From contig NZ_JACIGJ010000002.1 in NCBI RefSeq assembly GCF_014197855.1, positions 1 to 64,000 on the forward strand: DNA of 64,000 nt, read 5' to 3'. Origin of the DNA: Roseospira marina. Lineage in GTDB: Bacteria; Pseudomonadota; Alphaproteobacteria; Rhodospirillales; Rhodospirillaceae. Both the position numbers and the translations under genes were made by a program. Below, piece by piece: positions 11,534 through 22,834 of this stretch (position 1 is the first letter of the stretch; each line of letters begins with the position of its first letter). Under the pieces are notes generated by a model. It saw only the letters and a list, made by a program, of their open reading frames with translations, was not told where the DNA came from and did no database searches.

Positions 11534-14500
11534 ATGGTGTGCCAAGATCATCCCGACGAGCACGATACCATCGGCGGGATATCGATCCGGCCCATTGTTG
11601 TGTTGTTCGTCGTTTACGCCGTCGGCATTCTCATACTGGCTGGGGTCGAAGTGGGATTTAACGCCCTCATCGACGCGTTGGAGCGGAACTCTCAAAACGA
11701 GAGCAATCGTGTCCTGATCGGCGAAGGGATCATTAACGATCTGGTTCGCGTCGAAGCCCTGACCTACCGCATGGCAGCGGCGCCCCGGAACGATGGAAGT
11801 CGCCAGTGGGTCCATGACGCCATACAGCACAATGTCGAACACGTTCGAAGCGCCCTCGATGTCTTGCGCAATGGGGGCACACTCCATCGCGAGGTTCACC
11901 TGCATGGCGAAGACAAAAGTAGTGCCTTCAATCAAGAGGTGGCGTACACACCGCAGTCCAAGGACTTCCCATATGTTCTTGAAGTGTTGGAGATTGCACC
12001 GAAGCTGAAGGATATCGAGCGACTGGCCGACGAGTTGGCTGGCCTCATGGACCGGCATGACCGCACGGAAGACCTCCCCTCGCCCGAGGCTTATCTTGAG
12101 GCGGAGAAGGATATCGAAACGGTCATGACGCAGTTGCCCGCGCTGTTCACCGCAGTGCAGGAGAACGCTAACCGCCTGTTCTTCCGCAGCCAGGAAAACT
12201 TACAGACGCTCACACAGAATATCGAACAGCGGACAGCCCTCTACCACTATGCCCGCATTGGCCTGTCCTCGACCGTGATCCTTTTCGTCGTCGCCACAGG
12301 CGTATGGATGCTCCGCTCCGCCCGCGCGTCGAACCAGCATCTCGCCGCGGTCCAGCGCGACCTAACATTCCAGAAATTCGCGCTCGACCAACACGCCATT
12401 GTGACCAGTACCGACCATCTCGGAACCATTACCTACGCGAACACAAAATTCTGCGCGATTAGTGGCTACAGTCTCGACGAGATCCTTGGGCAGAACCACC
12501 GCTTGGTGCGCTCCGACGAGCACGATGACGCGTTCTTTGCCCATCTGTGGGCCACCATCTCGCATGGCGAGGTCTGGCACGGCGAAATCCGGAATCGCAG
12601 CAAGGCAGGGGGCAGCTACTGGGTCGCCGCGACCATAGTGCCCTTTCTCGACAGGCACGGCAGACCGTTCAAGTACATCGCGATCCGGACCGATATCACG
12701 GAACGAAAGCGGATCGAGGAGCAGTTCCGTCTGCGGAATCGCTTCTTGCGCAGCCTGACCGACGCCATGGGGGAAGGCGTCTACGCGCTAGACGCCGATG
12801 GCCGCTGCACCTTCATAAACCCGGAAGGCGAGCGTCTGCTGGGCCGATCTCCCGGCCAGATCATGGGCGCGGATATTCATGCCCTGGTCCATCAGGAAGG
12901 CGCCGGGGACGCCCCTGTGGCATCCGCGCACTGCCGCATTCTTCAGGCGATCGGACGCGGCGAGCCGTACCGATCGGAGACAGAACAGTTCAGCCGCGCC
13001 GACGGCACGCTGTTTCCGGCGGCAGTGACATCGGTCCCGATTGTGGAAGGCAGCCGGATCGCCGGTTCCGTGACGCTGTTTCAGGACATCACGGACCGTA
13101 AGGCGGCCGAGGACGCCATGGAGCGGGCCCGGGAGGAAGCCGAGCACTCCAACCGGCTGAAAAGCGGCTTCCTGGCCAACATGAGCCACGAAATCCGCAC
13201 CCCCATGAACGCCGTGATCGGCTTGAGCCATCTGGCTTTGCAAACCGAACTGTCCCCGCGTCAGAAGGACTACCTGGAAAACATCAGCACCGCATCCCAG
13301 AACCTTCTGGCCATCATCAACGACATCCTGGACTTTTCGAAGATCGAAGCCGGGAAGATGACGCTGGACGCCGTGCCGTACCGGCTCGCCGAGGTTTTGG
13401 ACAATATCGTAAACGTCGTCCGGCCCCGCTTGCTCGACAAGGGCCTGGCATTCACCCTCCAAGTGACCCGAGCGGTGCCGGATGTCTTGCTCGGCGATCC
13501 GGTGCGCCTGGGGCAGGTGCTCATCAATCTGGTGGGCAACGCCGTAAAGTTCACGGACGCGGGAGGAATCACGGTCGATATCGATGTCGCGGCGGCAACG
13601 GACGAATCGTCGGTGTCACCCGCTCGGCTCGCCGTTACGGTGACCGATACCGGCGTGGGGATGACGGAGTCACAACAATCCCACCTGTTCAAGGCCTTTA
13701 CCCAGGTCGACAATTCAACCACCCGCCGCTTCGGCGGCACCGGCTTGGGTCTGGCGATCTGCCGCGAAATCCTGACGATGATGGGCGGGGATATCACCCT
13801 GGACAGTGCGCCCGGCGAAGGCAGTGCCTTCTGCTTCACCGTTCCCCTGGTCGAACCGCCGCCCGAACAGCGTCAACCGCTTCTGCCCCCGGACCTCCAG
13901 GGAACCCCCGTTCTTTTAGCTTGCGCCCGCGCTGAGGAACGGGCGGCGCTCGCGCTCATGCTGGAACGGCTGGGCATGACCGTGGACCCTGCCGAAACGG
14001 TTGCGGCCATCGAAGCGCGCTTGCGCGGCGAACCGGATCGTCAGGCCCGGCTGATGGTCTTGGACGGCACGATGACCGATACCGCCGGCCGGTATCTCGC
14101 CAGCACCCTGCCGACGCGCCGCGACCGCCCGCCGATGGTGATTGTGGGAGGCCCCAGTGGCAGCCGTGACGCCGTCGACGTCAGTTGGGTCGACCGTCTG
14201 GTGACGGAATGGCGGATGCGGGGTGCTGTGCTGCGCCTATGCGACCGCGCCGCTCACGCGGATCCGGACACGGGGCGAGACACAAACGGCCGTCCCCAAC
14301 GCACCCGGGAGACCCTGGCCGGGGCCCGCGTCCTCCTGGTGGAGGACACCCCGTTGAATCAAAAAGTGGCCGAAGAGATGCTGCGCGGCGCCGGCATCGA
14401 TGTAACCGTCGCGGACAACGGACGCATCGCGCTCGAGCTCCTCGCACGTGAGTCCTTCGATCTTGTGCTGATGGACATCCAGATGCCGGAGCTCGACGGC

Positions 14501-15409
14501 CTGGAGACCACGCGCCGCATCCGCCAACATACGGACTGGACCGATCTGCCCGTGATCGCGATGACGGCCCACGCCATGGATGCCGACCGGGAACGCAGTT
14601 ACCAAAGCGGAATGAACGATCATATCGCGAAACCGATCCATCCACCAGAACTGTTTTCGACCATCGCGCGTTGGCTCAACCGAGACATGGCGGCGGCGCC
14701 GGTGTCCGCGCCCGAAGATCCGGAGGAGGAAACCGCCGTCCTGCAATCGCTCAGCAAGGCCATTCTGGACGTCCTGGATGTACGTGTCGCCTTGCGATCG
14801 GTGTCGGGCAACGTCGCCCTGCTCCGGCGCCTGTTGGTCGACTTCGGGACGAACCAGGGCTTGCAGACCTTCGTTCTCCATCAAGCCATCAAGGAACAGC
14901 GGCTGGATGAGGCGCGCCAGATCGCCCATTCGCTCAAGGGCACGGCGGCCACCATCGGCGCCACGGAAGTGTCGCGCTCGGCGGCCGCCCTGGAACGCGT
15001 TCTCGCCCGGAACGAAGTCCCCGCGCAGGCGATGGTGGAACGGCTGAGTATCGTTCTGTCCCCCTTGTTGCGCGCCATCGTGGATCTCAACGATCAACCG
15101 GCCGACGCTGCCCAGGACGCCGAGTCCGAATCCGGGAACCGCACTGAGAGAGCCGGCACCGACATGACTCGCCTGCGCGACACCGTCGGGCGCTTGCGGG
15201 CGGCCCTGACGGCGGCGGAACCCGACGCCGAACACTATGCCCGGGATCTCGTCAAGCGCGTACCGGGTCCCCAGAAACCAAAGGCCCGCAGTATTCTTGC
15301 GTACGCTGAGGGTTTCGACTTTGATGATGCCTTGAACGACCTAATCGCACTAGAAATCGATCTTGAGTTGTCATTGGCTACTTCCGTGCCTGGAGATGCC
15401 GTATCATGA
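11534..15409 (+). CDS. Membrane hybrid sensor histidine kinase (PAS-PAS-HK-REC-REC-HPt)
   Basis: This 1291-residue phosphorelay kinase has, in order: a TM helix (about 20-40), a helical periplasmic sensor (45-240), TM2 (244-260), PAS 1 (275-392), PAS 2 (400-522), and a dimerisation/phosphoacceptor domain with SHEIRTPMNAVIG (His552). The ATPase domain has an N box near 667-673, DTGVGM 705-710 and GGTGLGL 734-740. A degenerate first receiver (about 790-900) has LDGTMTD in place of a normal Asp loop. The second receiver is complete (VLLVEDTPLNQK, phosphoacceptor Asp981 in LMDIQMPELDG), and the HPt domain carries AHSLKGTAATIG (His1132). His-Asp-His relay chemistry is therefore complete and the output should pass to a separate receiver. 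The next gene, an HD-GYP response regulator overlapping by four bases, is the obvious target. The periplasmic part has no motif that names its ligand. Confidence 0.93.
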   Translation: MVCQDHPDEHDTIGGISIRPIVVLFVVYAVGILILAGVEVGFNALIDALERNSQNESNRVLIGEGIINDLVRVEALTYRMAAAPRNDGSRQWVHDAIQHNVEHVRSALDVLRNGGTLHREVHLHGEDKSSAFNQEVAYTPQSKDFPYVLEVLEIAPKLKDIERLADELAGLMDRHDRTEDLPSPEAYLEAEKDIETVMTQLPALFTAVQENANRLFFRSQENLQTLTQNIEQRTALYHYARIGLSSTVILFVVATGVWMLRSARASNQHLAAVQRDLTFQKFALDQHAIVTSTDHLGTITYANTKFCAISGYSLDEILGQNHRLVRSDEHDDAFFAHLWATISHGEVWHGEIRNRSKAGGSYWVAATIVPFLDRHGRPFKYIAIRTDITERKRIEEQFRLRNRFLRSLTDAMGEGVYALDADGRCTFINPEGERLLGRSPGQIMGADIHALVHQEGAGDAPVASAHCRILQAIGRGEPYRSETEQFSRADGTLFPAAVTSVPIVEGSRIAGSVTLFQDITDRKAAEDAMERAREEAEHSNRLKSGFLANMSHEIRTPMNAVIGLSHLALQTELSPRQKDYLENISTASQNLLAIINDILDFSKIEAGKMTLDAVPYRLAEVLDNIVNVVRPRLLDKGLAFTLQVTRAVPDVLLGDPVRLGQVLINLVGNAVKFTDAGGITVDIDVAAATDESSVSPARLAVTVTDTGVGMTESQQSHLFKAFTQVDNSTTRRFGGTGLGLAICREILTMMGGDITLDSAPGEGSAFCFTVPLVEPPPEQRQPLLPPDLQGTPVLLACARAEERAALALMLERLGMTVDPAETVAAIEARLRGEPDRQARLMVLDGTMTDTAGRYLASTLPTRRDRPPMVIVGGPSGSRDAVDVSWVDRLVTEWRMRGAVLRLCDRAAHADPDTGRDTNGRPQRTRETLAGARVLLVEDTPLNQKVAEEMLRGAGIDVTVADNGRIALELLARESFDLVLMDIQMPELDGLETTRRIRQHTDWTDLPVIAMTAHAMDADRERSYQSGMNDHIAKPIHPPELFSTIARWLNRDMAAAPVSAPEDPEEETAVLQSLSKAILDVLDVRVALRSVSGNVALLRRLLVDFGTNQGLQTFVLHQAIKEQRLDEARQIAHSLKGTAATIGATEVSRSAAALERVLARNEVPAQAMVERLSIVLSPLLRAIVDLNDQPADAAQDAESESGNRTERAGTDMTRLRDTVGRLRAALTAAEPDAEHYARDLVKRVPGPQKPKARSILAYAEGFDFDDALNDLIALEIDLELSLATSVPGDAVS

Positions 15410-16557
15410 CGCCCTCGCCCCCGTCTCCCGAGGCGCCCGCCCGAATTCTGATCGTCGACGACGAGCCACTGAATATCAAAGTCCTCGTCGACCTGCTCGG
15501 TGGCACCTACCGCCTGACTGTCGCCAAAAGCGGCAATCAGGCGTTGCAGCGCCTTCAGAGCGGACCGACCCCCGATCTGATCCTGCTCGATGTCATGATG
15601 CCCGGCATTGACGGGCTGGAGCTGTGCCGCATTCTTAAGGAAACGCCGGCGTACGCAGATATTCCAGTCATTTTCGTCACCGCTCTCGGGGATGTGGACG
15701 ACGAAATGCGGGGGTTTGAACTGGGAGCCGTGGACTACCTGACCAAACCGATCTCTCCAGCCGTGGCCCAGGCTCGCGTGCGGACGCATCTTCAGCTACG
15801 GGCGGCGAAACGCGTGCTGGAAGACTACAGCCGCGCGCTGGAAGATGAGGTCCGCCAGCGTACGGACGAGCTGATGGCGCGCAGCCGGCAATTGGGAGAG
15901 GCTCAGGACGTCACTATCCGCGCCCTCGCCTCGCTGGCGGAAACCCGCGACAACGAAACCGGCAACCACATCCGCCGCACGCAGCATTATGTCCGCCTCC
16001 TGGCCGAGGGTCTCTCGAATCACCCCAGGTTCAAACAGCACCTGGACGCCGATACCGTCGAATTGCTGTTCAAATCGGCCCCCTTGCACGACGTCGGCAA
16101 GGTTGGCATTCCGGACGCCATCCTTCTCAAACCCGGACGCCTGACTGACACCGAAATGGAGGTCATGAAGACCCACGCCGCGTTGGGCCGCGACGCCCTG
16201 ATGGCGGCGGCAGAGGGCGCCGACCCGGATGGCATAGGGTTCCTCCGGCTGGCGTGCGATATCGCTGGCGGGCATCACGAAAAATGGGACGGCACCGGAT
16301 ACCCGCATGGTCTAGCGGGGAACGACATCCCGTTCGCGGCCCGCCTGATGGCGGTTGCCGACGTTTACGATGCCCTGATTTCCCGCCGCGTCTACAAGGC
16401 TCCCTTCTCTCACGAGCAGGCTATGACCGTCATCCGGGAGGGCCGGGGCCGGCATTTCGACCCCGCCATCGTCGATGTCATGGTCGAGCGGGAGACCGAG
16501 GTGCGCGCCATCGCCCTCCGGTTTGCTGATCCCGAAAGCGACGTGACGGCCACCTGA
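15406..16557 (+). CDS. Response regulator with HD-GYP cyclic-di-GMP phosphodiesterase domain (RpfG type)
   Basis: This 383-residue protein has an N-terminal receiver (residues 12-125, ILIVDDEPLN, phosphoacceptor Asp62 in LLDVMMPGIDG, Lys in TKPIS), a helical linker (130-170), and an HD-GYP domain (170-370). The catalytic signatures are intact: ETGNHIRRT, HDVGKVGIP (His228/Asp229) and GHHEKWDGTGYPHGL, including the GYP loop. Such proteins hydrolyse c-di-GMP to pGpG or GMP, and phosphorylation of the receiver usually controls activity. The start codon overlaps the stop of the hybrid kinase (ATGA), so the two are made together and most likely form one phosphorelay that lowers c-di-GMP. It converges on the kaiBC-associated kinase gene 31 bases away. 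Confidence 0.93.
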   Translation: MTPSPPSPEAPARILIVDDEPLNIKVLVDLLGGTYRLTVAKSGNQALQRLQSGPTPDLILLDVMMPGIDGLELCRILKETPAYADIPVIFVTALGDVDDEMRGFELGAVDYLTKPISPAVAQARVRTHLQLRAAKRVLEDYSRALEDEVRQRTDELMARSRQLGEAQDVTIRALASLAETRDNETGNHIRRTQHYVRLLAEGLSNHPRFKQHLDADTVELLFKSAPLHDVGKVGIPDAILLKPGRLTDTEMEVMKTHAALGRDALMAAAEGADPDGIGFLRLACDIAGGHHEKWDGTGYPHGLAGNDIPFAARLMAVADVYDALISRRVYKAPFSHEQAMTVIREGRGRHFDPAIVDVMVERETEVRAIALRFADPESDVTAT

Positions 16558-16588: not shown

Positions 16589-18028
16589 TCACGGAAGCCC
16601 GGTCACAACGCGGTTCGCGGGCAGCCAAAGTGTCACCGTTGTTCCGAGAGACGGCGTGCTGTGGAGGGTCAATTCGCCCCCCAAGAGTTGCATCACCTGG
16701 GTGCTGAGATAGACTCCGAGCCCGGACCCCTTGCGCCGTCGCGGGTGCAGACTGTCAATCATCTCAAAGGGCTCCAGGACCTGTCGGGCGGTCTCCTCGT
16801 CCATCCCGATGCCCTCATCGATGACGAGGATATCGAGCCCTTCCCCGGCGTCGTTCGGATTGCGCAGGGCCGCCACGAAACGGATCGGACGATGGTCGCG
16901 ATTGAACTTCAGCGCGTTCGACAGAATGTTGTTGAAGACCTGCCCCAACGCCCGATCGTCGCCCAGAATGCGCAGGTTATTCGGACACTCGACCGCGACG
17001 ATCTCCGCGCCGTGCCCGTTGCCGAGGACGGCGGTTTGTGTCACGGCACGGCGCATCAGGGGCTCAAGCGCCAGACTCTGACTCAAAATCTCGTATTGGC
17101 CGGACTCGATCGTCGACAGGTCCAGAACGTCGTTGACCAGCGACACCAGCAGCGAACCGCTGTCCTCGATCCCCTGAACATACTCTCGGTAGTGATCCGA
17201 ACCCAGCGGCCCATCGACCTCCGTCCGCATCAACTCGGCGAACCCGATAATGGCGTTCAGGGGCGTGCGCAGGTCGTGGCTCATGTTCGACAGGAACTCG
17301 GACTTAGCCCGGTTGGCCTGCTCCGCCAGCGCCTTCGCGGCCAACGTATCGGCCTCCGCCTGCTTGCGCGGCGTAATGTCCCGCAGGAAGACGAACAACC
17401 GCCCGCCGGCCACGGGCGAGTAGCTGATTCCCACCTCGACATGGATGATGCGGCCGTCGCGGGCACGGTGGCGGGTCTCGAACAGAGTGCTGCCCTTGAC
17501 CCTCAAGGTTGCGATGCGGTCCGCCACCATACGGGCGCTGGCGCCGATCTCGACATCCTGCATATGAAGGCCGATCACCTCCTCACGGCGGTAACCCGTC
17601 ATGCACAGATAGGCGTCGTTGACCTCCGCTATACAGGCCGTCAGGTCGGTGATCCAGAAGCCGTCGTGCGCCCGTTCGATCACGGAGCGGTACAGCTCCT
17701 CCCGCTCCAGCAGCCGAGCCGCAGCCTGATGGCGCTCCGTGACGTCCCGCAGCGAGATCAGGGACAGGGTGGCCCGGCCTGTTTGCAAGGGGACCACCTG
17801 CATCTCGACGACGCGGTCGGCGTCCTCGGCCCGGGGGACTAGGATCTCGACGGGCTGATCCGTCTGAATGGGCGCCGAGAACGGATACCCGGTCGATGCA
17901 AGATCGGTGGGCGCGAACAGCGCCTTGGCCTGAAGATTCGCGTAGACGACCTGACCCTCGGAGTCCACCAGCAGCACGGCCTCCGCCAAGTGCTCAAGGG
18001 CCAGAGTCGTGAGCGCGAACTCATCCAT
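16589..18028 (-). CDS. Soluble PAS-PAS histidine kinase of the kaiBC operon
   Basis: This 479-residue protein begins MDEFALTTLALEHLAEA. PAS 1 spans about 5-98 and is compact. PAS 2 spans about 110-222 and contains the FWITDLTACIAEVNDAYLCM-type fold. The phosphoacceptor segment is NMSHDLRTPLNAIIGF (His251). The ATPase domain has GQVFNNILSNALKF, DEGIGMDEETA and GSGLGVYLSTQVM. No TM helix and no receiver are present, so it is a cytosolic kinase that needs a partner regulator. It is the third gene of kaiC-kaiB-kinase, and its start lies inside the kaiB coding end (ATG 18,028, with GGGGG six bases upstream; 18,034 is an alternative). In proteobacterial KaiBC operons such a kinase is thought to take the output role of SasA, but it lacks the KaiB-like domain of SasA. 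Coupling is inferred from the operon. Confidence 0.9.
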   Translation of the reverse strand: MDEFALTTLALEHLAEAVLLVDSEGQVVYANLQAKALFAPTDLASTGYPFSAPIQTDQPVEILVPRAEDADRVVEMQVVPLQTGRATLSLISLRDVTERHQAAARLLEREELYRSVIERAHDGFWITDLTACIAEVNDAYLCMTGYRREEVIGLHMQDVEIGASARMVADRIATLRVKGSTLFETRHRARDGRIIHVEVGISYSPVAGGRLFVFLRDITPRKQAEADTLAAKALAEQANRAKSEFLSNMSHDLRTPLNAIIGFAELMRTEVDGPLGSDHYREYVQGIEDSGSLLVSLVNDVLDLSTIESGQYEILSQSLALEPLMRRAVTQTAVLGNGHGAEIVAVECPNNLRILGDDRALGQVFNNILSNALKFNRDHRPIRFVAALRNPNDAGEGLDILVIDEGIGMDEETARQVLEPFEMIDSLHPRRRKGSGLGVYLSTQVMQLLGGELTLHSTPSLGTTVTLWLPANRVVTGLP

Positions 18029-18344
18029 CGCCATCCCCCGCAGGCGCCTCCGGGTCCCCCTCATAGGGCGGCCCCAGGTGCGCCCGCACTGCCGCCAGGT
18101 TCCGCAAATCCCCAACGATTCGGATCCGCGCATCGTCCGTGCGGACCAACGTCGGCGTTGCCAGGACATGCGCTTGCTCGGCCGCCTGCGGATTCTCCCG
18201 GACGTCGATGATCTCCACCGCCCCTAACTGCCGGGCATTGGCGATGGCCCGACGGACCGTCTCCGTCTGGCCAAGAATGAACAAGCGGAGGCCGGGCCGC
18301 GATGCAGCCGAATCGACCCCGGCAGATGGCAGCGACTCGGTCAT
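18021..18344 (-). CDS. kaiB: Circadian clock protein KaiB homologue
   Basis: This 107-residue thioredoxin-like fold protein has LRLFILGQTETVRRAIANAR (residues 19-38), VEIIDVRENPQAAEQAHVLA (43-62) and TPTLVR then IRIVGDL (63-80). These are the strand and loop signatures of KaiB, including the ATPTL turn with cis-Pro. Compared with cyanobacterial KaiB, about eight residues are missing between helix 1 and strand 2. That is the fold-switching part, so its ability to change fold may differ. The acidic C-terminal tail (EGDPEAPAGDGDG) resembles that of KaiB. KaiB binds the CI ring of KaiC. The start overlaps the kaiC stop (ATGA) and the end overlaps the kinase start, giving strict operon coupling. 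There is no kaiA in the window, as expected outside cyanobacteria. Confidence 0.88.
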   Translation of the reverse strand: MTESLPSAGVDSAASRPGLRLFILGQTETVRRAIANARQLGAVEIIDVRENPQAAEQAHVLATPTLVRTDDARIRIVGDLRNLAAVRAHLGPPYEGDPEAPAGDGDG

Positions 18345-20005
18345 GGCTGGCCCCTGGCCTCACGGACCGCCTCCTCGCTGCTTTTAGAGGCGGCGAGGCG
18401 AGTCCGTAGGGTCTCGATCTCCTCCCGCAGGCTTTCAATCGCCTTGTCCCGTTCCAGGACGGTTTGATCCACGCGGGCGTCGTAGGCCTGTGGCAAGACC
18501 TCCAACTCACGCCTCAACTGCTCGAGGCGACGTTCCAGAGCGATCCGTTCCCGATGGTCTTCACGCTCGCGGATCAGCTTTTCGGTCCCGAACACAAAGG
18601 CGCCACCCCCGAGATAGGGATCATCGATCGCGATCCCAGCACTCGTGATCTGGAATTCCTTGATCTGCTGCGAGGTGCGCACGCCACGCCCCTTCAGCAC
18701 CCGGATCAGGCGCACGTATTCGCTAGTCTGGCGGTGTAACTCCAAACGGATCCAGGCATCGAGCATGGACGACAAGCCGAGCGAGCTCGCCATCCCCGCC
18801 GCATCCGCGAGGAGTTCCGTCAGGACGACCATCACGCCCCGGCTCTTGCAGGCGTCGATCAGCCTCAGGACCATACTTTTGACGGCCGCCACCGAGTCGA
18901 GGTCCGCGAACGAGGTCACCGCGTCCACAAAAATGGCATCGGGCGCCTCGGCCTCGGCAAGCCGCACGATCCGGATCAGATGCTCTTCCAGGCTGCAATC
19001 GACCGAACGGGCGCGGTGGAACCGCAAGCGGCCCGTCGCCCTATGCGGCTCTACATCAATCCCGACCCCTTTGAAGTCATGGATCAATTCGGACTGATCC
19101 TGCTCCAAGGTCACATAGATGACCCGCCGTCCGTCCGTGCACAGGCCCTGCGCGATCTGACCGAGAAGGGTCGTTTTTCCGGTTCCGGACGTTCCGGATA
19201 CCATCACCGACCCACCTCGATAGAGGCCGCCGCCCAATAGGGTATCGAGGCGTTCGTGTCCCGTGCTGACCAAGCCCTCGCGCGACCGGTGTCCGCCCAT
19301 GCCTCGGGCGGGCGGCAGCAGGCTTGGGCCATGCGAATCGATCATGAAGGGGTATTCGTTTGTGCCGTGAGGCACGCCCCGCATCTTCAGCACCCGAAGC
19401 GTGCGGGTCATCAACCGGGCCGCCACGGTCTGGCGAAGACCGATCACCGCGTCGACGGCGTAGTCGATCAAGGCCGCCCGCGTCGCGGCATCGTCGGCCG
19501 CGGACATGATGGTGGTGATCCCGGATTCACGCAGCAGGCGAAGCAGCGCCAGCGTCTGTACTCGCGCCACCCCATCCGGATTGAAGGCATATGCCAAGCG
19601 GTTCAGGTCGTCGATCCCGAGACGGGCCTCCGGCGCGATGACGCCACCCTCCGCTAGCGCGGCGTCCAGACGGATCTTGACGACCTCCTGGTCGAGGGCG
19701 CCAAGCACGACCTCACCGGGCTCCGGCCGCAGGTCCACCATGACAAGGCGCCCGTCGCGGACCCAGGCCTCAGCCGGATGCCCCAGGGCGACCATATAGG
19801 CCAGCATGCGCTCCGGCGCTTCGGAACACGTCGCGCAGACGGCGCGATGGCCCTGCTTGGCCCCGTCGGCCAGGAACTGGAGCAACAACAAGGTTTTGCC
19901 GCACCCGGGCTGCCCCATAACAAGCGTCGGACACCCGGGCAGGTACCCGCCCGACAGGACATCGTCGAGCCCCGGAACCCCCGTGCTGACCTGTTCTGTT
20001 GCCAT
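18341..20005 (-). CDS. kaiC: Circadian clock ATPase/kinase KaiC homologue with C-terminal coiled coil
   Basis: This 554-residue double RecA-fold ATPase has a CI domain (about 8-235) with Walker A GQPGCGKT (31-38) and a CII domain (245-475) with GTSGTGKT (271-278). The segment GLSSMLDAWIRL places Ser412-Ser413 at the sites of the Ser431/Thr432 autophosphorylation pair of cyanobacterial KaiC. The catalytic Glu pairs are altered: CI has Ser61-Glu62 (CSEAP against FEETP) and CII has Glu301-Gln302. Residues after about 475 are a charged coiled coil of about 75 residues, not the KaiA-binding A-loop tail. Rhodobacter sphaeroides KaiC has the same kind of extension and uses it to pair hexamers. ATG 20,005 is preceded by GGAGGA at a good distance; a TTG directly before it is less likely. 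Confidence 0.92.
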   Translation of the reverse strand: MATEQVSTGVPGLDDVLSGGYLPGCPTLVMGQPGCGKTLLLLQFLADGAKQGHRAVCATCSEAPERMLAYMVALGHPAEAWVRDGRLVMVDLRPEPGEVVLGALDQEVVKIRLDAALAEGGVIAPEARLGIDDLNRLAYAFNPDGVARVQTLALLRLLRESGITTIMSAADDAATRAALIDYAVDAVIGLRQTVAARLMTRTLRVLKMRGVPHGTNEYPFMIDSHGPSLLPPARGMGGHRSREGLVSTGHERLDTLLGGGLYRGGSVMVSGTSGTGKTTLLGQIAQGLCTDGRRVIYVTLEQDQSELIHDFKGVGIDVEPHRATGRLRFHRARSVDCSLEEHLIRIVRLAEAEAPDAIFVDAVTSFADLDSVAAVKSMVLRLIDACKSRGVMVVLTELLADAAGMASSLGLSSMLDAWIRLELHRQTSEYVRLIRVLKGRGVRTSQQIKEFQITSAGIAIDDPYLGGGAFVFGTEKLIREREDHRERIALERRLEQLRRELEVLPQAYDARVDQTVLERDKAIESLREEIETLRTRLAASKSSEEAVREARGQP

Positions 20006-21204: not shown

Positions 21205-21469
21205 CCGGTCCTTTCAACGGATCCAGGTGACGCAGGTCCGCATCAGTCTGTGGCGGTTCCGTTGCAACGAGCGACATTTTTTCGAATCAACGAATTTGTG
21301 CAGACCGCGGCCGTTGAACCGCTTACAATTTTGTTCGGCTTTGATGCATCTGAGCCGCCGTGCGGGAGCCGGGGTCGACATCACTCCCGCCGGAATGTTT
21401 GGGTCGGCGACACCCCGGTGGGCACGGGTCCGTTGTTCTCCCTGGGTCGCCCGTGCGTTGAGGACCACC

Positions 21470-22834
21470 ATGCCGGCCTCCGAACCTTCCCGGGACCCGA
21501 GGCGGATTCTCGTCGTCGAGGAGACCCCCTTTTTTCTCAACGTGACGCACCGACGGCTGGAGACGCAGTTGAACGTCACCGTCCTGGATGCGGGAACCCT
21601 GGCCGAAGCCCGCGCCGTCATTGAGCGTGAAGGGCCCAGCCTGTTCCTGTGCGTCGTCGATCTCGTGCTGCCCGACGCCGACAGCGGTGACATCGTGGAT
21701 CTCGCCATCGAGAACGGCCTGCCGTGCATCGTGTTCACGAGCATGTTCAGTGACGAGGTGCGCGAGGAAGTCCTGTCCAAGAAGGTCATCGACTACGTCA
21801 CCAAGGACAGCCCCGCCAGTCTCGACTATATGACGCACCTGATCACCCGGCTGGTCGGCAATGCCGAAACCAAGGTGCTGGTCGTCGATGATTCCCGGTC
21901 GGCGCGCAGCTATGTGTGCGACCTGCTGCATTTGTACCGGTTTCAGGTGCTGGAAGCGGCCGACGGCGTGCAGGCTCTGTCGATCCTGCGCGAAACGCCC
22001 GACATCCGCTTGATTGTGACCGACTACTTCATGCCCCGCATGGACGGGTTTGAACTCGTCAAGCAGGTGAGAAACATCTTTGCGCCCACCGATGTCGCGA
22101 TCATTGGCTTGTCCAGCGCCGGAAGCGGCCTCTTATCCGCGCGGTTCATCAAGTACGGCGCCAACGACGTCCTCAATAAGCCATTCCTGCGCGAAGAGTT
22201 TTTCTGCCGCATCTCCCAGAATATGGATAACCTGGATTACATCCGGGACCTGGAGCATGCGGCGCAATTCGATCCTCTGACCGATCTGTACAATCGTCGT
22301 TTTTTGTTCGAGGCAGCCGAACCGTTTCTTTCCCAGGCCCGCCGCGAGGGCTCGAACCCCGTCGTTGCGATGATGGACATCGATCACTTCAAGTCGGTGA
22401 ACGACACCTTTGGCCACGACGCGGGGGACGCGATCCTCGTTGGGATTGCGGAGACACTGCGGAGGCTGCTGCGCCGCCGGTCGGATATCCTGGCGCGCGT
22501 CGGGGGTGAGGAGTTCTGTCTGTTCGCGCCCGAACTCGCGCCGGAGGCGGTGGAAGGTTTTTTCGAAAAGCTGCGGAACGCCGTGGCCGACATGCCCATC
22601 GCCCTTGCCGACAATGACTCGCGCAAAAGCATCAAGATCACTATGAGCATCGGCGTGTGCGACCGACCGATGGCGTCGTTTAACGAAATGCTGCGTCGCG
22701 CCGACCGGTGCCTGTACGCCGCGAAGGCGGCCGGTCGAAACTGTGTGCGCATCGAGTCCCGGAACCCGCACCCCGCCAGCATCCCCTTGTCGGGCGCCCG
22801 TCTCCACCCGCCTGTGACACAAAAATGCGATTGA
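21470..22834 (+). CDS. Double-receiver diguanylate cyclase (REC-REC-GGEEF, PleD-like)
   Basis: This 454-residue protein begins MPASEPSRDPRRILVVEET. Receiver 1 spans 12-125, with acidic pocket Glu17-Glu18 where Asp-Asp is usual and possible phosphoacceptor Asp64 in VVDLVLPDAD. Receiver 2 spans 134-250 and is canonical (VLVVDDSRSAR, Asp185 in VTDYFMPRMDG, Lys in NKPF). The GGDEF domain spans 265-435, with DPLTDLYNRRFL, DIDHFKSVNDTFGHDAGD and an active-site GGEEF at 345-349. An allosteric RxxD site (Arg336-Asp339) stands five residues before it. It should make c-di-GMP from GTP on phosphorylation, with product feedback inhibition. ATG 21,470 is preceded by GAGG at six bases. The open frame extends upstream but shows no protein-like sequence. 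It opposes the HD-GYP phosphodiesterase encoded 5 kb upstream. Confidence 0.92.
   Translation: MPASEPSRDPRRILVVEETPFFLNVTHRRLETQLNVTVLDAGTLAEARAVIEREGPSLFLCVVDLVLPDADSGDIVDLAIENGLPCIVFTSMFSDEVREEVLSKKVIDYVTKDSPASLDYMTHLITRLVGNAETKVLVVDDSRSARSYVCDLLHLYRFQVLEAADGVQALSILRETPDIRLIVTDYFMPRMDGFELVKQVRNIFAPTDVAIIGLSSAGSGLLSARFIKYGANDVLNKPFLREEFFCRISQNMDNLDYIRDLEHAAQFDPLTDLYNRRFLFEAAEPFLSQARREGSNPVVAMMDIDHFKSVNDTFGHDAGDAILVGIAETLRRLLRRRSDILARVGGEEFCLFAPELAPEAVEGFFEKLRNAVADMPIALADNDSRKSIKITMSIGVCDRPMASFNEMLRRADRCLYAAKAAGRNCVRIESRNPHPASIPLSGARLHPPVTQKCD

Follow-up and report, generated by a model that had tools for sequence, protein, structure and literature searches.

The first 64,000 nucleotides of contig NZ_JACIGJ010000002.1 of Roseospira marina (hereafter the window; C2:1-64000 of a 4.6 Mb genome in 57 contigs) carry a KaiBC module and a histidine kinase gene. 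kaiC, kaiB and a PAS-PAS histidine kinase form one minus-strand operon in that order, with overlapping starts. kaiC (18341..20005) begins with an ATG at 20005 and encodes 554 amino acids, divided into a CI domain (about residues 5-228), a CII domain (about 244-466) and a helical tail (473-550). The kaiC stop and the start of kaiB (18021..18344, 107 amino acids) overlap in the sequence ATGA, and the kinase gene (16589..18034) starts within kaiB, at 18034 or 18028. Pfam matches to KaiC (two stretches), KaiB, PAS, HisKA and HATPase_c cover the operon products, with the second PAS of the kinase a Pfam match and the first PAS-like stretch a weak match only. Coordinates, gene order, overlap and domain content all agree with a preliminary description of the DNA, which had been made without database searches.

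The module lacks KaiA, as that description had proposed. No KaiA match was found in any of the six genomes of the genus by a search that returned a control match in S. elongatus. kaiB is the single match in its genome; four other KaiC-family matches there all score below the window kaiC, and the best of the four resembles RadA by eye. Reaction-centre genes occur in five of the six genomes, that of R. marina included, so the host is a phototroph. The gene order is familiar: kaiC-B-PAS/HK operons are reported in Rhodopseudomonas palustris and Rhodobacter sphaeroides (PMC4794148), and the KaiA-less R. sphaeroides system likewise has kaiC followed by kaiB with a PAS kinase.

KaiC retains the architecture of a tandem ATPase. 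Its two tandem PF06745 domains each carry a Walker A motif, GQPGCGKT in CI (residues 31-38; 19892..19915, minus strand, as are all features of the operon) and GTSGTGKT in CII (residues 271-278; 19172..19195). Alignment with R. sphaeroides KaiC places Ser412-Ser413 (18767..18772) opposite Ser413/Ser414, and a Ser-Ser phosphosite is the criterion given for R. sphaeroides-type KaiC (PMC10076222). The C-terminal tail (18356..18589) was predicted in a monomer model to be a single helix spanning residues 473-550, in line with the roughly 50-residue extension that is a criterion of the KaiC2/R. sphaeroides type. It contains a lineage-specific Pro505; the idea that this proline breaks the tail coil was rejected, because the modelled helix is unbroken. 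The nearest solved structures are the R. sphaeroides dodecamers (8dba, 8fwi and the KaiC-KaiB complex 8fwj), with which the protein shares tandem KaiC domains, the Ser-Ser site and a helical tail. It falls below both NCBIfam equivalog cut-offs, narrowly for PRK09302.1 (406.2 of 408 bits) and widely for circ_KaiC (176.6 of 546.25 bits).

One glutamate of each catalytic pair is replaced. In CI the pair, elsewhere Glu-Glu, reads Ser61-Glu62 (19820..19825), and in CII it reads Glu301-Gln302 (19100..19105); Ser61 aligns with Glu62 and Gln302 with Glu303 of R. sphaeroides, as first noticed from the sequence. Roles for these positions have been described in S. elongatus (PMC2777353): E77 deprotonates and so activates the CI water and E78 is a Mg ligand, E318 is the CII base and E319 a Mg ligand, and a third CI glutamate, E183, lies near the phosphate in a role described as unclear. 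The same source reports that E318D is arrhythmic. By these assignments, R. marina KaiC is predicted to lack the water-activating base of CI while keeping its Mg ligand, and to keep the base of CII while lacking one of its Mg ligands.

The substitutions are common to a whole lineage. A search of 73 genomes of the family recovered relatives at 63-73% identity in Roseospira navarrensis, Rhodospira trueperi, an uncultured Rhodospira and Roseospirillum parvum; a second R. trueperi copy and two further genomes of the genus (56-61%) bring the lineage to eight genes in seven genomes. We read the catalytic positions in 80 KaiC rows (8 lineage, 2 sister, 70 other). The CI pair is Ser-Glu in three lineage genes and Thr-Glu in five, and the CII pair is Glu-Gln in all eight; because every member read carries these changes, they are not due to chance. 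Sharing with well-studied proteobacterial KaiC proteins was checked and not found: all 69 other rows with a readable CI pair have Glu-Glu there, R. sphaeroides among them, and one of the 70 has no readable pair. These other rows were chosen by similarity to the window protein and are mostly Pseudomonadota, with zero cyanobacterial genomes and one designed KaiC (8zn5), so the count describes that neighbourhood and is not a KaiC census. Left out of the 80 were same-gene duplicates, matches in G478, G504 and G513, and the incomplete rows L020 (CI Glu-Glu), L021 and L063 (no CI there), L022 and L047 (no readable pair in L047). R. palustris KaiC is also set apart, having all four catalytic glutamates according to its published description (PMC4794148). 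The CII change is less unusual, with three Glu-Met and nine Asp-Glu pairs among the 70 other rows. The glutamate equivalent to E183 is missing from the lineage in our alignment; we give this no weight, because the Asp-Glu group, which keeps CI Glu-Glu, lacks it too.

A sister group carries only part of this pattern. A search of the order (317 genomes) with a ten-member profile left no scores between 845 bits (members) and 466 bits (the rest), and it added only genomes G509 and G496, whose genes (L050 and L051) have CI Ser-Glu as in the lineage but CII Glu-Glu, and whose KaiBs, unlike those of the lineage, have a normal alpha1 length and all three prolines discussed below. Residues that hold nucleotide and phosphosite are invariant in all ten lineage and sister genes: K37, T38, E62, D132, K207 and R209 in CI, and K277, E301, D361, S412, S413, K438 and R440 in CII. 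A tree built from 76 KaiC rows groups the eight lineage genes in one branch (100/100) with the two sisters adjoining it; the ten together are again supported at 100/100, and R. sphaeroides KaiC sits in a different branch. The resemblance to the R. sphaeroides system claimed in the preliminary description thus extends to architecture but not to membership of the same branch. Because the tree is midpoint-rooted and has long branches, with a tool warning on possible false joins, where the lineage belongs among KaiC proteins is uncertain. No description of the lineage, or of a natural KaiC lacking the CI glutamate, was found in the open-licence literature, a coverage that leaves out most subscription journals. 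We conclude that this is a distinct KaiBC lineage of Rhodospirillaceae phototrophs, belonging to the already known KaiA-less KaiBC type.

Other kaiC groups and copies appeared alongside. A second KaiC branch of nine rows (100/100; L035, L036, L046, L048, L061, L062, L064, L065 and L082) has CII Asp-Glu and a Ser-Thr site, and a third group has CII Glu-Met (L127, L128 and L130). In Rhodospira trueperi the first operon is closely followed by a second kaiC (L009 12511-14211, the same as L071 12055-13755) with no kaiB match beside it; a sequence resembling glycerol kinase by eye lies behind both.

KaiB differs from its relatives at two sites. The first is a deletion at the junction around residues 38-43 (18216..18233), where eight residues of the link between alpha1 and beta2 are missing relative to R. 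sphaeroides. Counted inclusively, the span from Gly25 to Asp47 is 23 residues in all seven lineage KaiBs and 30-32 in the other 96 rows, so that the deletion is found in 7/7 against 0/96; the 103 rows are not all independent, L083 and L096 being one gene twice. The preliminary description had the length right but placed the deletion in the fold-switching part, whereas it falls where helix alpha1 ends and links to strand beta2, in the N-terminal half. In R. sphaeroides KaiB that half stays folded and the C-terminal half switches, a process that takes hours and whose slow step is the cis/trans isomerisation of Pro58, Pro65 and Pro67 (PMC11551320).

The second site lies in the switching half and had been overlooked; a proline count across the 103 KaiB rows brought it to light. 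The loop at residues 69-74 (18123..18140) lacks Pro65 (R. sphaeroides numbering), and Asp71 occupies its place. The span from Pro58 to Asp74 is shorter by one residue, 16 against 17 in 94 of the 96 others, and counting from Pro58 the lineage has Pro58 in 7/7, Pro65 in 0/7 and Pro67 in 4/7, a Pro67 count that hinges on the placement of a one-residue gap because the proline of L007 sits one place earlier. All three prolines are present in 92 of the 96 other KaiBs. Three KaiBs from loci of the Asp-Glu branch (L046, L065 and L082) lack both Pro65 and Pro67, and several loci (L012, L033, L034, L045 and others) have two tandem kaiB genes beside kaiC where the lineage has one.

A KaiB model built from 16 sequences (predicted local distance difference test score, pLDDT, 74) arranges its elements in fold-switched order. 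Its best PDB matches are KaiBs in that form, second among them Legionella pneumophila KaiB (4kun), with which the predicted thioredoxin-like topology is shared. Position 68, where fold-switched clusters are enriched for Arg and ground-state clusters for Leu (PMC10808063), holds Arg in the window and L007, Ser in one lineage KaiB and Pro in four when counted back from Gly73, with no Leu or Ile. Positions 83 and 84, which with 68 make up a published KaiB triple change, show no agreement with it. A KaiB locked in the fold-switched form is kept here as a suggestion only, given the known preference of ColabFold for that form.

These changes bear on the two steps to which Kai timing has been ascribed. 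What sets the Kai time scale, in published accounts, is the slowness of KaiB fold switching, joined in the KaiABC oscillator by slow ATP hydrolysis in KaiC (PMC11551320). With the CI base lost and Pro65 of KaiB lost, features tied to both steps are, as read from the alignments, altered in a single lineage. Our preferred, though still tentative, reading is that the operon encodes a KaiA-less KaiBC module that would follow ATP/ADP directly, its slow steps removed, and would act as a fast energy-charge switch. The suggestion in the preliminary description that the system may differ from that of R. sphaeroides in rate points the same way. With the kinase base Glu301 and the Ser-Ser site in place, the CII ring should still autophosphorylate. 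The CI ring, which keeps ATP binding, the arginine and lysine fingers and Glu62 but no water activator, would show very slow ATP hydrolysis or none, and its nucleotide would then track the cellular ATP/ADP ratio by exchange. KaiB without Pro65 would probably bind without an hours-long switch, on when CI holds ADP and off when CI holds ATP, so that its binding would report the ATP/ADP ratio at equilibrium. In members with a co-encoded kinase, that kinase may relay the state of KaiC. Because R. sphaeroides KaiC already autophosphorylates fast, any gain in speed would lie in the binding and release of KaiB and not in the kinase step.

Several published observations bear on this scheme. In R. sphaeroides, KaiB binds to ADP-state CI, the more so the lower the ATP/ADP ratio, and the phosphorylation state has little influence (PMC10076222). 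The double change E62Q/E63Q ends CI ATPase activity in R. sphaeroides and interferes with KaiB binding (PMC10076222), and S. elongatus E77Q/E78Q KaiC autophosphorylates with no KaiB complex detected (PMC5007536). CatE1-minus KaiC monomers bind KaiB in the absence of ATP (PMC3823767), so the CI glutamate is not needed for the KaiB contact itself. The single change E77Q is reported in the context of KaiA binding (PMC6549140).

The sister genes suggest an order of events. Since the sister has the CI change alone, the CI change would have come first, a step that depends on the tree and its root. It is possible, if somewhat less secure, that evolution removed both slow steps in turn, CI hydrolysis and then KaiB fold switching, turning an hourglass into a fast ATP/ADP switch with the sister as an intermediate.

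Several observations weigh against this interpretation. R. sphaeroides KaiBC already responds to ATP/ADP, and its KaiC autophosphorylates at 6.5 per hour (PMC10076222), and the two systems may therefore differ only in degree. The KaiB-binding knock-outs cited above are double mutants with both glutamates changed; the remaining Glu62, equivalent to S. elongatus E78, could serve as a substitute base, and a CI without activity might fail to bind KaiB at all should binding depend on hydrolysis there. In KaiB, Pro67 or an adjacent proline survives in five of the seven lineage proteins, and R. sphaeroides P65A lost its fold-switched peaks (PMC11551320), a result that runs opposite to a fold-switched KaiB. 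The KaiB model is weak evidence, because ColabFold yields the fold-switched form even for T. elongatus KaiB, whose stable form is the ground state (PMC10808063). The CI and KaiB changes are not strictly coupled, as the sisters have the first and keep a normal KaiB. Finally, CI identity exceeds CII identity by 0.036 among the lineage genes. The margin is larger in seven of the eight other KaiC2-like groups with Glu-Glu pairs (0.012 to 0.179 across these groups), and mild relaxation of CI is possible; CI identity falls below CII in three further groups, two untailed with Glu-Glu and one with Asp-Glu.

Part of this evidence would fit an ordinary hourglass of the R. sphaeroides type, in which Glu62 and its neighbours substitute for the missing base, CI hydrolyses ATP and KaiB switches slowly. 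The common gene order (PMC4794148), the double-Ser site, tail and closest structures (8dba, 8fwi and 8fwj) and the invariance of E62, D132, K207 and R209 all speak for it. We nevertheless rate it as less likely than the switch: the residue missing from CI is the described water activator (PMC2777353), the lineage lies outside the R. sphaeroides branch, and Pro65 is gone from every lineage KaiB.

The small margin of CI over CII identity could also be a sign of decay, with the clock genes as relics losing function, as could losses at several catalytic and switch positions and the absence of the kinase from one member. This we consider very improbable. None of the eight lineage genes has an in-frame stop, kaiC is kept in all six genomes of the genus, and the substitutions are of the same class throughout. 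Lineage members share on average 68% pairwise identity in CI and 64% in CII, which indicates that CI is still under constraint and led us to reject plain CI decay.

The kinase is a common rather than a universal partner of the kaiC-kaiB core. Relatives at 51-63% identity lie directly behind kaiB in L007, L008, L009 and L010, making five of six judgeable genomes with the window. In the sixth, L069 has no kinase behind kaiB, an opposite-strand open reading frame occupying the place, and its genome, G036, has no kinase match at E 1e-70; G033 (88% complete) has none at the same threshold, its contig L070 ending soon after kaiB. The preliminary description had named the kinase as the output: it is co-encoded in the window, but its absence from L069 and G036 shows that it is not an obligate one. 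No operon-kinase match is listed at the sister loci L050 and L051. An open reading frame behind the sister kaiBC pair (L050 3554-4213; L067 11446-12699) resembles a class III nucleotide cyclase by eye; that of L067 has no Pfam match at E 0.001, and no function is claimed for it.

The frequency of the kinase, together with the fold of KaiB, would also suit a Legionella-like module without timing or energy sensing, in which KaiB is fixed in the thioredoxin-like form and KaiC, as a kinase scaffold, acts in stress signalling by way of the PAS kinase. Legionella KaiB was crystallised fold-switched and its suggested role is in stress, not in circadian timing (PMC10808063); it is also the second-best match (4kun) of the KaiB model. 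That model is weak, likeness of fold is no proof of function, and the residues with which the KaiC ring holds nucleotide are invariant; we think this alternative unlikely.

Genes for a hybrid histidine kinase, a REC-HD-GYP protein and a REC-REC-GGDEF protein flank the operon (window 11534-16557 and 21227-22834; Pfam). A cyclic di-GMP (c-di-GMP) output through these neighbours was considered and rejected, the last two being unmatched beside kaiC in L007, L008, L009/L071, L010 and L069, with the flanks of L007 and L010 short on one side. Besides the operon kinase, the kaiC loci of the relatives gave only one hybrid-kinase match, at 25% identity, in L069.

The value of the lineage lies in what it could separate. 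Engineered glutamate mutants are damaged proteins, whereas this natural lineage keeps its CI domain without the residue. It bears on whether ADP in CI is enough for KaiB binding or hydrolysis there is required. With the lineage changed at both steps and its sister at one, the two together would allow the step that carries time in KaiBC systems to be told apart.

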